Assembly (NCBI GenBank): GCA_030603445.1
Contig: JAUVXU010000005.1
Coordinates: 1-64,000, forward strand
Direction of reading: 5' to 3'
Length of the DNA: 64,000 bases
Source of the DNA: Methanomicrobia archaeon
GTDB taxonomy: Archaea; Methanobacteriota_B; Thermococci; Methanofastidiosales; NM3
The stretch's first letter is position 1. Each line of letters begins with the position of its first letter. Shown here piece after piece: positions 44,649-49,700 of the stretch. The translations under genes were made by a program, and so were the position numbers. Below the pieces are notes generated by a model, which was not told where the DNA came from, searched no databases, and saw only the letters and a program-made list of their open reading frames with translations.

Positions 44649-45761
44649 CTAAAGGCTATCCAACAGATGCATCAAGATTATCCTACATTCTCGAACTTCA
44701 TCTAACTTATGATCTAGTATTCCCTCTTTTATCAAGGATTCCTCAAGCACGTCAAATTCACGTTTCAGGGAAAAGTAATCCTCGGGAGAAGCATTTGCAA
44801 GTTTCAAGAAGAAGAGCTCAAGTTCTTTTTCTATGCTCTTGTTTTCAGTGATATGTGATGAAAATGATGTATGGTGTACTTCCTTAGAAGATGCATCCTC
44901 TTTAATAGATTTTTCCTCTATACGCGATGAAAATGCTTGTTCCACTAAAATGCCCTCGTCTGTTTTAGTCCGGAGATAGTAATACTTTCCCACAAGAATT
45001 ATAGTGAAAATAGATAAGAGAATATAAAATCCATTATGAATTCCCCAATGCAGTTCCATATATGGGCCAACATAATAACAACCCGTAGCAACAATTATCC
45101 AACCTATAATCTTGCCAAGATATGTCCATGACGAAGTTAAGGCTTTTCCAAACATCCTGGCCTTAGTCATGCTAACATATAACAAAATTGCAAAGATTAT
45201 AACTGGAACATTTACCCCTATCCCAAAAATAATTGGGAAAACTATACCGCTTGATGATGAGATGGCAAGCGGCATTAAAAGACCAAAGAACAGCATCCCG
45301 GAATATGGACAAAAAGCAAATGCGAATAACATTCCTAAAAGCAATGCGCCAATACCGCCCTTCGAAGAAAGCGATGCAGAAAACCTTTGTGTAAGGTTAC
45401 TGCCAAATGATATGTCAAACTCAAATAACCCGGCAAACCACAAACCTATAAATATCAGCACCGGCCCAATTACCATATTTCCATATGTCTGTGTATCGCG
45501 GGCAAAAGACCCCACTACCTGCCCCGCAGATATCATTATTGCGCCAATCACAAAATAAGTCACAATTCTTCCTATGCTAAATAGAAAACCTGCATAAAGT
45601 GCCTTGGATGGATTATTGGCATCATGGGCAATATAACTTATTGCTGCTACGTTCGCAGCAAATGTACATGGACTAATAGCAGTGGCTAGCCCTATGAAGA
45701 ATGATGATATAAACGGCATATTAGTATTGTTTGCAATTTGTTCAATGAATTCTGGTATCAC
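44649..45761 (-). CDS. CcdA/DsbD-type transmembrane electron carrier
   Basis: A 370-residue protein. Residues 15-260 hold about six to seven membrane helices with the two conserved cysteines, C32 in AISPCTF and C151 in FAFCPYSG, that carry electrons across the membrane by thiol-disulfide exchange. A cytoplasmic helical domain of about 100 residues (LELFFLKLANASPEDYFSLKREFDVLEESLIKEG) follows and is unusual for CcdA. It is the last gene of the redox/permease cluster and overlaps the preceding gene by 4 nt. It would pass electrons from cytoplasmic thioredoxins to the extracytoplasmic CxxC proteins encoded next to it (inference). Confidence 0.82.
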   Translation of the reverse strand: MIPEFIEQIANNTNMPFISSFFIGLATAISPCTFAANVAAISYIAHDANNPSKALYAGFLFSIGRIVTYFVIGAIMISAGQVVGSFARDTQTYGNMVIGPVLIFIGLWFAGLFEFDISFGSNLTQRFSASLSSKGGIGALLLGMLFAFAFCPYSGMLFFGLLMPLAISSSSGIVFPIIFGIGVNVPVIIFAILLYVSMTKARMFGKALTSSWTYLGKIIGWIIVATGCYYVGPYMELHWGIHNGFYILLSIFTIILVGKYYYLRTKTDEGILVEQAFSSRIEEKSIKEDASSKEVHHTSFSSHITENKSIEKELELFFLKLANASPEDYFSLKREFDVLEESLIKEGILDHKLDEVRECRIILMHLLDSL

Positions 45762-46471
45762 AGCAATTCCTCTAGGTAATTTTTGAAGTATTCTGTATAA
45801 CTTTGTTTACTAGAAACACGCCTGAACAGATTATACGTGGGATTATGAACTATTGTATCATCAGGGAATATTTCTAGTACAAATACTGATGAGCCATAAA
45901 CGTTGAGCTCGTTGACTATAGTACTGTTTTTTGGATCCTCATAATTTAGGCTGTCATATGTTATTGTGCCATTGGAGAATTCGTCAGGAAAATAGGTGAT
46001 AATAGTATAATATGCATATTCCCCTGCAAGTATACAAGAAGTGCACTGATGTGTTGCATGGAAATGATACACTTTTATAATTTTACTAGGTGTTGTTGTC
46101 GTTGGTGGAAGTGTTGTTGTGGGTGCTAGAGTAGTTGTAGGCACTGGGGTCGTGGTTGGTGGAGGTAATGTTGTAGGTGCGGGAGTTGTAGTTGGTGGAA
46201 GTGTGGTAGGTGCCAGAGTAGTTGTAGGTACTGGTGTTGTAGTTGGCGGGGGTAATGTAATATCTGGTTCACTTGAACCTGTGTTTGCAATTAAAGAGTA
46301 TGATACAAAGGCGATTACAATTATCCCAAGGATTAAGAGGATGCCTCGTGAACTCACAGACCTATTATTTTTTAGAACATTTTCTTTATCAGTAGAACTA
46401 ATCTTGTGGTGAGGAATAAAATCATCCTCTTTGTAAATGCCCCTACCAGGAATTCCCTTATCACTATCCAT
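45758..46471 (-). CDS. Membrane-anchored CxxC protein with Thr/Pro-rich stalk
   Basis: A 237-residue protein: cytoplasmic N-terminus (1-42), one membrane helix (43-62), a stalk of TTTP/APTTLPP repeats (about 72-129) and an extracytoplasmic domain starting KVYHFHATHQCTSC (C143, C146). The CxxC at a predicted strand-helix junction and the overall length fit a thioredoxin-like fold. The same domain pattern (HxT-x2-CxxC, later YF-x-DE and ITY-x-S) is found in the neighbouring 46480-46947 gene, so they are paralogues. I do not recognise a named family. It overlaps the CcdA-like gene and would be its natural redox partner outside the membrane. Confidence 0.75.
   Translation of the reverse strand: MDSDKGIPGRGIYKEDDFIPHHKISSTDKENVLKNNRSVSSRGILLILGIIVIAFVSYSLIANTGSSEPDITLPPPTTTPVPTTTLAPTTLPPTTTPAPTTLPPPTTTPVPTTTLAPTTTLPPTTTTPSKIIKVYHFHATHQCTSCILAGEYAYYTIITYFPDEFSNGTITYDSLNYEDPKNSTIVNELNVYGSSVFVLEIFPDDTIVHNPTYNLFRRVSSKQSYTEYFKNYLEELL
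46087..46260. repeat. Internal tandem repeats encoding the Thr/Pro stalk
   Basis: The stalk-coding DNA is made of short repeats of GTTGTAG/GGTGGA-type units. A unit of about 49 bp (46119-46167) recurs almost unchanged at 46209-46257, indicating a recent duplication. Stalk length is therefore likely to vary between strains. Confidence 0.7.
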
Positions 46472-46479
46472 TATGCCAC

Positions 46480-46947
46480 TTATCCTAACAAAACTAATTT
46501 TTCGTCAAGCAAATCTCTAAAATAGTTTAGAAATACGCCTTTATCATCAGAATACTCCCACGATTTTTTCACTTCTTCGATATGCTGCTTTCCACCATAA
46601 ATCACATTCAAATACAAAGAGGTATAGCAGGAATTATAAATCTTAGAAACATCATCTGTTGATTTATCATCAAGATTATACGAAGCATATGTTATTTTCT
46701 CTGACTTGAGCTCATCTTCAAAATAGAAAAATATCGTTTCGTATGTCCATTTTTCTATATTATAGCATGCTTCACAACGTTTTGTTTCATGAAAATATGC
46801 TATATCTATCCTTTTTATGGAAGAATCTACAGTTGGGGGTGGCTTTGTATCGTTTGAAGATACTATGCACATACTAACTGAAGTTGCCATAAGGACCAGT
46901 GCTATCACAAATATTGTGAATTGTTTATTAAATTGTTTAAATATCAT
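46480..46947 (-). CDS. Signal-anchored CxxC protein, paralogue of 45758-46471
   Basis: A 155-residue protein: a hydrophobic signal/anchor (about 9-27), a short proline linker and a domain with RIDIAYFHETKRCEACYN (C58, C61) and IFFYFEDELKSEKITYASYN. It shares this pattern with the larger Thr/Pro-stalk protein next door. A thioredoxin-like extracytoplasmic oxidoreductase is the likely role. ATG 46947 is preferred; a TTG at 46986 would start inside the previous gene without a ribosome-binding site. It ends 8 nt before the paralogue. Confidence 0.72.
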   Translation of the reverse strand: MIFKQFNKQFTIFVIALVLMATSVSMCIVSSNDTKPPPTVDSSIKRIDIAYFHETKRCEACYNIEKWTYETIFFYFEDELKSEKITYASYNLDDKSTDDVSKIYNSCYTSLYLNVIYGGKQHIEEVKKSWEYSDDKGVFLNYFRDLLDEKLVLLG

Positions 46948-46969
46948 GTAAAAACCAAAAAAGGGAGAG

Positions 46970-47218
46970 TTACATTCTTTCCTCAACCATTTTTTTCAGA
47001 TTTTCAAACGTTGGGACTTGGCCTGTCGCAAGAATCTCACCTTTAAATACAATTGCAGGCGTCATCATAACGCCATATTTATCTGCTTCTTCGGAAAATA
47101 TATTGTATTTAGCCATGTTGATGCCTAATGTTCCTGCGACCATCTGGGCCATTTCTGCTGTTTTTTTGCACCTAACACAAGGAGGTTCCGGTCCAAATAC
47201 TTTTATTTCTTCTACCAT
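46970..47218 (-). CDS. Small thioredoxin/glutaredoxin-like redox protein (CVRC)
   Basis: An 82-residue protein with KVFGPEPPCVRC at the start (C14, C17) and the cis-Pro region MTPAIVFKGEILATGQVP. It belongs to the archaeal small redox-active disulfide proteins (MTH895-like). It could reduce the CcdA-like protein or the permease. Third of three such proteins in the operon. Confidence 0.85.
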   Translation of the reverse strand: MVEEIKVFGPEPPCVRCKKTAEMAQMVAGTLGINMAKYNIFSEEADKYGVMMTPAIVFKGEILATGQVPTFENLKKMVEERM

Positions 47219-47236
47219 TTTTTCACCTCATATAAC

Positions 47237-47491
47237 CTATAAGCCTGCTTCGAAAAATGCGTTGCGCAATGATTGTTCACTGGGGCATACTCCAATGATC
47301 CGAATGTCCTTATCTATGATTATTGCCGGTGTTGTTTCAAGACCGTACTCCTTAGTTTTTTCATTTACTCCCTTGTAGATAATGAACTCTGCCTTTCCAT
47401 CGTAGTCTCCCTTGACCTTATCTATTAGCTTTAGCATCATTCTCCCGCCTGAACACGGCGGTTCAGAGGCAAATATCTCAACTTTTATCAT
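47237..47491 (-). CDS. Small thioredoxin-like protein lacking the second active-site cysteine (CSGG)
   Basis: An 84-residue protein with the same fold pattern as its neighbours (VEIFASEPPCSGG ... TTPAIIIDKDIRIIGVCPS) but only the first cysteine of CxxC (C13; Gly at the fourth position). It can form mixed disulfides or bind a metal/thiol but not cycle through an internal CxxC disulfide, unless the C-terminal Cys in GVCPS takes part. GGGGGTAAAAA precedes the ATG; it overlaps the CAGC copy by 14 nt. Confidence 0.8.
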   Translation of the reverse strand: MIKVEIFASEPPCSGGRMMLKLIDKVKGDYDGKAEFIIYKGVNEKTKEYGLETTPAIIIDKDIRIIGVCPSEQSLRNAFFEAGL

Positions 47492-47753
47492 TTTTTACCC
47501 CCATTTCCATCAAAGCTGCAGCTATTGTGTCATAACTTGGACACAGCCCCATCATTTCAATCCGCCCTTCCTCTATTATTGTTGCAGGTACGTACGTAAT
47601 CTTATATTGCACAAATTCATCACACATGCCTATGTGTTTTATCACTTTTACTTCTGGGAAGTTCTCCTGTACCTTATCCGCCAGTTCTAAAAGAGCCACA
47701 CATCCTGCACAGGGGGGTTCAGCCGTAAACACTTCGAGTTTTACCAATTTCAT
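47478..47753 (-). CDS. Small thioredoxin-like protein (CAGC)
   Basis: A 91-residue protein with KLEVFTAEPPCAGC (C15, C18), the cis-Pro strand TYVPATIIEEGRIEMMGLCPS and an extra cysteine in HIGMCDEF. It is the first of three related small redox proteins after the permease gene, 76 nt away. Its partner in the neighbourhood is likely the permease or the overlapping CSGG copy. Confidence 0.85.
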   Translation of the reverse strand: MKLVKLEVFTAEPPCAGCVALLELADKVQENFPEVKVIKHIGMCDEFVQYKITYVPATIIEEGRIEMMGLCPSYDTIAAALMEMGVKNDKS

Positions 47754-47829
47754 GCATCTCCTTTTTGTATTATATTAACAGATTATAATACTCTTAAGTA
47801 TTAATATGTTTCTCCTTATATTATCTATT

Positions 47830-48867
47830 TTAAAGTGCTCCATAGACTAAGCCTGAAGTTGTTGCAAATACGACAACAAGCGTCACATAGACAATTGTTT
47901 TTTTTGTGCCCATTACCTGCCTTATAGCAAGCATATTTGGCAATGACAATGCAGGTCCGGCTAGCAATAATGCCAGTTCTGGGCCCTTGTTCATCCCGAG
48001 GCTAGTAAGAGATTCTACGATCGGGACCTCTGTTAACGTAGCAAAATACATAAATGCCCCAACAATAGAAGCAGTGAGGTTTGAAATCAAAGAGTTCGAA
48101 CCAACATAGCGTGCAACGTACTCTGGCGGCATGAATTCCTTGATAAGGCCTGCTGTAAAAACCCCGATTAAAAGTAAGGGAAATATCATCTTAAATAGAG
48201 AAAATGTTTCTTCTCCCCACTGCTTAGATTCCTCCTTGCTAAGCCAAAAGTATGTGATGAGCGCTATTATAGAAACAAGCGCCAGTACAATTGGTATTTT
48301 AAAATTATTAGATATGGCAGCTGTTCCAACTAATAGCACAAATACTAAGTTAACAAACAATAGGACTGCCTTTTTTTCTGTTATGCCTCCAGAAGATGCA
48401 ATCTTAGGTGTGTTTTTTTCCACCTCATCCTTTTTTTCAAAAATAAATTCCATGATGAGCCCAATTATTATTGCCATTCCTATAGCAGCTACTGCACGTG
48501 CCAATCCAATATTATATCCCAAAACTTTTGCAGTAAGTGATATTGCCAGGATGTTTATTGCAGGCCCAGAGTAAAGGAATGTTGTTGCTGGACCAATTCC
48601 TGCGCCACGCTTAGAAATGCCTGCAAAAAGTGGTATTACGGTGCATGAGCAGGCTGCAAGTATGCAGCCAGATATTGAGGAGACCCCATATGATATGTAT
48701 CTTTTTGTGCCATATCCGAAATATTTCATCACAGCCTGTTTAGATATAAAAACAGCAATAGCGCCTGCTATAAAAAAAGCGGGGACAAGGCAAGTAAGCG
48801 TATGTGCAGATAGGTATTCTATAAGTTCATTTATACCAGATTCTACTCCACGATAAAGGTAGTCCAT
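47830..48867 (-). CDS. Permease of the COG0701/ArsP type
   Basis: A 345-residue membrane protein with about eight helices in two halves. The first half has AACSCTVIPLFAGISKRGAGIGPATTFLYSGPAINI, with the CSC pair (C73, C75) typical of the family; the second half repeats the pattern in FATLTEVPIVESLTSLGMNKGPELALLLAGPALSLPN. Relatives export organoarsenicals (ArsP) or metals. An ArsR regulator lies upstream and three thioredoxin-like genes downstream. The 136-bp gap to arsR holds its own TATA-like TTTATAAATC-type sequence and a motif shared with the arsR promoter. Confidence 0.82.
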   Translation of the reverse strand: MDYLYRGVESGINELIEYLSAHTLTCLVPAFFIAGAIAVFISKQAVMKYFGYGTKRYISYGVSSISGCILAACSCTVIPLFAGISKRGAGIGPATTFLYSGPAINILAISLTAKVLGYNIGLARAVAAIGMAIIIGLIMEFIFEKKDEVEKNTPKIASSGGITEKKAVLLFVNLVFVLLVGTAAISNNFKIPIVLALVSIIALITYFWLSKEESKQWGEETFSLFKMIFPLLLIGVFTAGLIKEFMPPEYVARYVGSNSLISNLTASIVGAFMYFATLTEVPIVESLTSLGMNKGPELALLLAGPALSLPNMLAIRQVMGTKKTIVYVTLVVVFATTSGLVYGAL

Positions 48868-48895
48868 TCAACTGTCTCCTAAGGATATATAAGTA

Positions 48896-48907
48896 ATTAG
48901 TTATATA
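48896..48907. promoter_or_regulatory. Candidate ArsR operator upstream of the permease gene
   Basis: ATTAGTTATATA, part of a looser inverted repeat with the following ACTGAT. The identical 12-mer occurs at 49299-49310 upstream of the arsR-like gene. Shared position before the two transcripts of one regulatory unit suggests an ArsR binding site. Confidence 0.45.
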
Positions 48908-49003
48908 CTGATATTTGATTTATAAATCTTTCTATAAAATATATCCTATAAAAATACAAGTAGTCTTCTTAATGACAAATAGATAAAAACAGATTGTAGT
49001 AAA

Positions 49004-49279
49004 CTACCGTACGTAGTTAGACATTATATCAAGAAGGGAGTATATATCATCAGAAGTGGTAAAATATAAGATTTTTTTGCCATCTCGCCTGTAATCAATC
49101 AATCCTGCCTCCCGCAAGACACGCAAATGCTGGGAAACGTTAGACTGTGATGTGCCAATATAAGGGACAATCTCGCAAACACATCTCTCTCCTTTTCGTA
49201 AGAATTCCAAAATCTTTATCCTGTTCTCATCACTTAAAGCTTTGAAAAGATATGCCAAATAACGTACATTCGCACCCAT
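49004..49279 (-). CDS. ArsR/SmtB-family metal(loid)-responsive repressor
   Basis: A 91-residue winged-helix regulator. The helix-3 metal site ERCVCEIV (C33, C35) matches the ELCVCD motif for As(III)/Sb(III)-type sensors, and the DNA-recognition helix GTSQSNVSQHLRVLREAGLI is typical. It should release DNA when it binds a metalloid or metal. It is upstream of the permease and redox genes on the same strand. A third cysteine for a three-coordinate site is not obvious in the sequence. Confidence 0.88.
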   Translation of the reverse strand: MGANVRYLAYLFKALSDENRIKILEFLRKGERCVCEIVPYIGTSQSNVSQHLRVLREAGLIDYRRDGKKILYFTTSDDIYSLLDIMSNYVR

Positions 49280-49298: not shown

Positions 49299-49310
49299 AT
49301 TAGTTATATA
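49299..49310. promoter_or_regulatory. Candidate ArsR operator upstream of the arsR gene
   Basis: A second exact copy of ATTAGTTATATA, 20 nt upstream of the arsR ATG. It overlaps an AT-rich stretch that could be the promoter, consistent with autoregulation (inference). Confidence 0.45.
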
Positions 49311-49382: not shown

Positions 49383-49700
49383 TTACTTTTCATTGTCTTT
49401 TTTCCATGAATGGATAGCTTTAATCAAAGCCTTACGAGACCACACTTCCTCGGGGAATCCCCTCATAAGCATAAGCACGGATATTGCTTCAACTATTTCC
49501 TCTTCACATGCGCCAGCATCCATGGCCCTCTTAACATGGTAATCAATGCATGTTTCACAGCGATTAATAATAGATATTACTATAGCGATTAGTTCTTTTG
49601 TCTTTAAATCCAGTACAGTAGATTCGTTCATTACACTACGTACCATAGTGTCATATGTGTTCCACAACTTAGCATAATGTTTCTCTATAAGTGATGGCAT
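49383..49700 (-). CDS. AhpD/carboxymuconolactone decarboxylase-like protein
   Basis: A 105-residue all-helical protein with the AhpD redox motif CETCIDYH (C48, C51, H55). Such proteins act as disulfide reductases or peroxidase partners; true carboxymuconolactone decarboxylase activity is unlikely. GAGGTGTAAAG precedes the ATG. It is upstream of arsR by 103 nt and may be part of the redox neighbourhood, though with its own promoter. Confidence 0.85.
   Translation of the reverse strand: MPSLIEKHYAKLWNTYDTMVRSVMNESTVLDLKTKELIAIVISIINRCETCIDYHVKRAMDAGACEEEIVEAISVLMLMRGFPEEVWSRKALIKAIHSWKKDNEK

Follow-up and report, generated by a model that had tools for sequence, protein, structure and literature searches.

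A predicted archaeal ArsP-ArsEFG operon in Methanofastidiosales and the family-wide cysteine pattern of ArsG and ArsF

The names ArsP and ArsEFG refer to organoarsenical resistance, and an ArsEFG operon is known from Shewanella putrefaciens 200. ArsEFG was reportedly described by Chen, Zhang, and Rosen in 2019 as a resistance system for roxarsone and nitarsone. The published assignment lists ArsG as an efflux transporter. Cluster 1 of the ArsP permeases has been defined through a C(S/T)C motif and an N-terminal H-x-L-x-C-L-V-P-A-F-F-I-A-G motif (Yang et al. 2015, PMC4435449). Here we describe a gene cluster with components of both kinds on contig JAUVXU010000005.1 of a Methanofastidiosales genome (GCA_030603445.1), of which the first 64,000 nucleotides, referred to below as the window, were analyzed. 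We read the cluster as an operon of the ArsP plus ArsEFG kind that detoxifies arsenic under ArsR repression, and place the probability of this identity and arsenic role, taken as a whole, at about 0.68.

Organization and family identity of the gene cluster

All eight open reading frames (ORFs) between positions 44649 and 49279 are open and lie on the minus strand, just as a first-pass annotation of this DNA had placed them, and they are transcribed in the order arsR, permease, three small thioredoxins, two copies of arsF, and arsG. The regulator and COG0701-type permease that it had recognized are confirmed by profile scores, with arsR (49004..49279) reaching 95 bits against a cut-off of 55 for HTH_metalloreg (NF033788) and the permease (47830..48867) reaching 271 bits against a cut-off of 32 for PF03773. 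The N-terminal HTLTCLVPAFFIAG of the permease fits the ArsP cluster 1 motif, and its C(S/T)C motif takes the form CSC, as it does in 77/77 homologous permeases. The small thioredoxins lie at 47478..47753 (PPCAGC, with an additional cysteine in GLCPS), 47237..47491 (CSGG, with a second conserved cysteine at residue 69 in GVCPS), and 46970..47218 (CVRC, best match to the MTH895/ArsE family, below the cut-off). All three exceed the cut-off of the Pfam Thioredoxin_3 family (PF13192), which bears out their thioredoxin-like nature, but the middle one, having CSGG instead of CxxC, is without a resolving cysteine.

Both CxxC proteins predicted to face the outside pass the curated NCBIfam cut-off of 60 bits for ArsF (NF040494). 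Copy a (46480..46947; 70.3 bits) consists of an N-terminal hydrophobic anchor and a thioredoxin-fold CxxC domain, while copy b (45758..46471; 71.1 bits) has a transmembrane (TM) anchor, a Thr/Pro-rich linker, and a CxxC domain. The anchors and CxxC motifs noted earlier are thus present, but the proteins do not form an unnamed family, as had been proposed, since both are ArsF. The ORF of copy a as listed (46480-46986) has a TTG start, and the ATG at 46947 is the better candidate because 86 of 90 homologues also have a methionine in this column. The last gene, arsG (44649..45761), encodes a CcdA-like membrane protein with Cys32 in SPC, Cys151 in FCP, and a C-terminal extension of ∼130 amino acids (aa); it scores 216.3 bits against the curated NCBIfam ArsG cut-off of 200 (NF040495) and 69 against 25 for DsbD_2. 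By these family assignments the gene set is arsR-arsP-arsE(x3)-arsF(x2)-arsG, an archaeal member of the ArsP plus ArsEFG kind, with the E-F-G order on a single strand. The six genes from the first small thioredoxin through arsG overlap or are spaced by at most 22 bp, and a gap of 76 bp separates the permease from the first of them.

Conservation of the gene set

Eighty named ArsG loci, which were gathered by ArsG similarity and are not an unbiased census, come mainly from Bacteroidota but also from Patescibacteria, Dehalococcoidia, Actinomycetota, Bacillota, and archaea, the last represented by Pacearchaeota, Woesearchaeota, Micrarchaeota, Altiarchaeales, Methanophagales, and Methanosarcinales. 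The 56 well-flanked loci among them were used for gene-set counts, and in 48 of these ArsR, ArsE, ArsP, ArsF, and ArsG all lie on one strand (individually, ArsF occurs in 55, ArsR in 53, ArsE in 52, and ArsP in 51). ArsF is upstream of ArsG in 77/80 loci, with a gap of at most 45 bp in 70 of those 77. An independent sample, a family search across the 197 genomes in the class of a Dehalococcoidia genome, recovered an ArsG above the cut-off in 15 genomes, and ArsF adjoins it in every case (15/15). Since the families recur together in 48/56 well-flanked loci from several phyla, the grouping exceeds chance, and the locus is real, conserved, and functional-looking.

The co-conservation for which the first-pass annotation had proposed a search was therefore found, but its view of the cluster as a new system is not supported, as none of the component families lacks a name and bacteria and archaea commonly have the full set. 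A suggested tie to methylthiol metabolism is likewise unsupported because many unrelated organisms have this operon too. The window locus has three ArsE-like and two ArsF genes. We rejected the idea that this architecture is specific to the window, as a Bacteroidales (L128) also has tandem ArsF genes and a Dehalococcoidia (L085) has a run of ArsE-like genes with a CSGG protein among them. The CSGG thioredoxin at 47237-47491 is 43% identical to that at L085:6391-6654, and both sit in tandem ArsE-like runs behind an ArsP-type permease, which makes it possible that the whole run was transferred between the Methanofastidiosales family of the window genome (f1) and Dehalococcoidia. A plasmid search returned distant matches only.

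Association with arsenic genes

Two other families, f3 and f4, belong to the order of the f1 window genome. In seven f3/f4 genomes (G006, G007, G009, G010, G014, G016, and G020), the arsenite pump Acr3 adjoins arsG, and in relatives a single ∼8-kb stretch (L048) carries ArsM, ArsR, Acr3, ArsG, ArsF, a second ArsR, an ArsC-like protein, a carboxymuconolactone-decarboxylase (CMD) protein, ArsE, and ArsP. Within it, ArsM scores 315 bits against a cut-off of 263 and Acr3 397 against 283, and the ArsC-like protein, at 120, is below its cut-off of 174. Acr3 homologues are also found within 29/80 named loci. The presence of Acr3, an ArsC-like protein, and ArsM beside the cluster in Methanofastidiosum relatives ties it to arsenic, and from these neighbors and the family names we infer that arsenic is the substrate. 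The earlier proposal of ArsR-controlled metalloid handling, for example the reduction and export of (methylated) arsenic, agrees with this. A literature search on MTH895, CcdA, and Methanofastidiosum with arsenic yielded nothing useful.

Several of these parts would also fit a system that handles soft metals (Hg, Cu/Zn, or Se) and is akin to the SO_0444, SAO, or TSO operons: the permease scores 121 bits with SO_0444 and 110 with SaoE, ArsR resembles TsoR, and one small thioredoxin resembles TsoX. Every such score is far under its curated cut-off (SO_0444 300, SaoE 325, then 115 and 52), however, and the neighbors in relatives are Acr3, ArsM, and an ArsC-like protein, so that we regard such a soft-metal system as improbable.

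Two further observations concern these families. The ArsM-family frames of two f3 genomes (L170, G009:C36:26567-27472, and G006:C4:79380-80288) each contain one in-frame TGA, possibly a selenocysteine codon or the mark of a broken frame. At G000:C45:2899-4013 (L002, L161), a pair of half-size PF03773 permease ORFs (∼160 aa each) lie side by side, and similar pairs occur in several relatives from the order and class.

Candidate operator and upstream region

The 136-bp gap between arsR and the permease holds a TATA-box-like ATTTATAAAT (48918..48927, minus strand) and, between it and the permease start, the imperfect palindrome TATATAAGTAATTAGTTATATA (48886..48907; no strand assigned), so that the permease group is probably transcribed from a separate promoter. 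Lying directly behind the TATA box, the palindrome is a candidate ArsR operator. One half of it recurs as ATTAGTTATATA 20 bp upstream of arsR (49299..49310; no strand assigned), a putative autoregulatory half site, and this 12-mer has two exact matches in the window where 0.04 would be expected. A genome search for the candidate operator 20-mer with up to three mismatches found no site besides 48886-48907. In relatives, a similar sequence, compared by eye, lies behind the TATA box that precedes the permease or arsF. The metal-site motif of ArsR reads ERCVCEI, a CVC (C33-x-C35) arrangement in which C33 is present in 90/91 and C35 in 31/91 cluster ArsRs.

An AhpD/CMD-like gene (49383..49700, minus strand), 103 bp upstream of arsR and on the same strand, is a possible accessory gene. 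A CMD-domain gene with low similarity to it lies inside the cluster of f4 relatives, and none is near the cluster in G001.

Cysteine anatomy of ArsE, ArsF, and ArsG

The cysteines of the three ArsEFG components are strongly conserved. ArsE-like proteins retain the first cysteine and the thioredoxin cis-proline in 89/89 cases and the second cysteine in 85/89, the four exceptions being the CSGG proteins (in the window, G001, G003, and L085), which instead keep a cysteine near the C terminus. ArsF has CxxC in 93/93 proteins, a hydrophobic N terminus in 90/93, and a lipobox-like cysteine column in 70/88; its AF2 model adopts a thioredoxin fold with a domain pLDDT of at least 94. The top PDB matches of this model are thioredoxin-fold proteins, none at an E value of ≤0.001, and the ArsF profile matches a thioredoxin at E = 1e-4.

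In ArsG, Cys32 (the TM1 xPC motif, SPC) is present in 90/90 proteins and Cys151 in every true ArsG, the two exceptions being CcdA/DsbD paralogues. The Cys151 count is partly built into the 80-locus set, for which one search pattern contained AFCP, and it was rechecked on the independent family search, in which AFCP is present in 18/18 ArsG-type proteins (15 above the cut-off and 3 below). The ArsG profile matches CcdA (5vkv) at E = 1e-4 over ∼215 residues. The first cysteines of the two align, and the second one of ArsG falls two positions earlier, ahead of the TM4 proline. In 12 CcdA/DsbD-like paralogues from the same genome sample, by contrast, the cysteine stands two residues later (TPC, SPC, and one ISC), and CP is found in 0/12. 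A Foldseek search with the ArsG model (pTM of 0.60) gave no match (best E value, 0.6), so the link between ArsG and CcdA rests on sequence. The CcdA-like carrier of the first-pass annotation thus keeps its profile similarity and its two membrane cysteines, but it belongs to the named family ArsG and has CP rather than xPC in TM4.

These features bear on what the NCBIfam names and the 2019 assignment say of the operon, namely that ArsE and ArsF form a nitroreductase for aromatic arsenicals, with ArsG as the permease through which the aminoaryl product is exported. The ArsF and ArsG cut-offs are exceeded here, and the literature counts ArsG among the efflux transporters, but ArsF is an anchored thioredoxin-fold CxxC protein in which no flavin-enzyme domain was detected, and ArsG is related to a thiol carrier and has two conserved cysteines. 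The operon also appears to be common where nitroaryl arsenicals are unlikely to be encountered, and altogether we consider this division of roles doubtful. Similarity to CcdA could alternatively point to a pathway of the CcdA/DsbD type, serving envelope thiols in general or the maturation of cytochrome c, that merely sits beside ArsR and the permease. This is very improbable, since ArsF and ArsG stay linked to ArsR and ArsP from one phylum to another and the genome has a separate DsbD-like protein (L160:3192-4697, G000:C32), in which two thioredoxin domains are fused to a CcdA domain with a canonical SPC/LPC pair. Weak matches to the ArsG model with the same size as this protein occur across the order.

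Proposed mechanism

Building on the established gene content, order, and conservation, the conserved cysteines, the modeled ArsF fold, and the candidate operator, we hypothesize the following for the ArsR-repressed arsenic-detoxification operon. Binding of As(III) or a trivalent organoarsenical to the CVC site of ArsR would free the operator behind the permease promoter, and ArsP would export trivalent organoarsenicals. Thiol equivalents would run from reduced ArsE small thioredoxins in the cytoplasm to the pair of membrane cysteines in ArsG and from there to the anchored ArsF outside. At the outer face, ArsF may reduce the arsenical or bind it, keeping it from re-entering or being re-oxidized. 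The least certain step is the passage of electrons, as opposed to the arsenical, through ArsG, in a relay that serves outside arsenical reduction and is coupled to ArsP export; we would give it slightly less than even odds.

Several points weigh against this scheme. The published assignment, with ArsG as an efflux permease and ArsF as a nitroreductase subunit, conflicts with it, and in the MTH895/ArsE model (TIGR00412) the protein at 46970-47218 scores 45.3 bits against a cut-off of 62 and the other two small thioredoxins 20 to 25. ArsG has CP in place of the canonical TM4 xPC cysteine of CcdA/DsbD, and at the cis-proline position of ArsF (position 122, before strand 3) proline is found in 1/93 proteins and Ser, Thr, or Gln in the others. 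Genome searches gave no real match to Acr3 or ArsM in the window genome or other f1 genomes, a tentative absence since these are draft genomes, and with neither recognizable in the window genome, arsenic is argued from relatives. If the absence holds, this Methanofastidiosales family may rely on the ArsP-ArsEFG operon for metalloid tolerance. The full electron path from cytoplasm to outside proposed in the first-pass annotation is therefore plausible by its anatomy, but it lacks the canonical ArsG TM4 xPC and the ArsF cis-proline.

With both of these missing, what travels along the path may be either electrons or the metalloid. Loss of the cis-proline reportedly lets CxxC bind metals (Su et al. 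2007, as cited in PMC2757866 and PMC6210436), and As(III) could accordingly pass from the ArsE dithiol to the two membrane thiols of ArsG and on to ArsF outside. The displaced TM4 cysteine of ArsG would suit such a hand-over, as would the conserved CSGG paralogue of ArsE, which is unable to cycle as a normal CxxC dithiol. ArsE otherwise retains the normal thioredoxin cis-proline and CxxC, which argues against it, and we think transfer of the metalloid unlikely. We attach an equally low probability to the stronger proposal that ArsG, in which the TM4 cysteine has shifted to the other side of the proline, represents a separate class of membrane thiol carriers, neither efflux permease nor ordinary CcdA, and passes trivalent metalloid from ArsE to a cis-proline-less ArsF as outside acceptor. 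The main interest of the detoxification operon lies in this family-wide evidence on ArsG and ArsF: the cysteine pattern suggests that the least understood part of ArsEFG, rather than being a simple pump, carries either thiol electrons or arsenic through the membrane. A shifted TM4 cysteine in ArsG, an exported ArsF without cis-proline, a cytosolic dithiol ArsE, and a CSC-bearing ArsP together offer a testable alternative to a nitroreductase with an efflux permease.

Comparison with known systems

The SAO/TSO selenoprotein operons share with this locus an ArsR-type regulator, a COG0701-type permease, and DsbD-like and thioredoxin-like parts, but all member scores here are far under the curated cut-offs. 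CcdA/DsbD carriers resemble ArsG in profile and in having the first membrane cysteine in SPC, whereas the second cysteine of ArsG comes before the TM4 proline (FCP) and theirs after it (TPC). Archaeal pairs of a COG0701 permease and an MTH895-type small thioredoxin are matched by the permease beside small thioredoxins, to which ArsF and ArsG are added here, a combination that is nevertheless common. The permease agrees with ArsP cluster 1 in its C(S/T)C and HxLxCLVPAFFIAG motifs (Yang et al. 2015, PMC4435449) and differs in being coupled to ArsEFG, with a substrate that is predicted. The ArsEFG operon itself is a counterpart in its ArsR control, its arsE-arsF-arsG order, and the ArsF and ArsG scores above the cut-offs, and the locus described here is set apart by its archaeal host, its two ArsF genes, and its three ArsE-like genes, one of them CSGG and all under the family cut-off.

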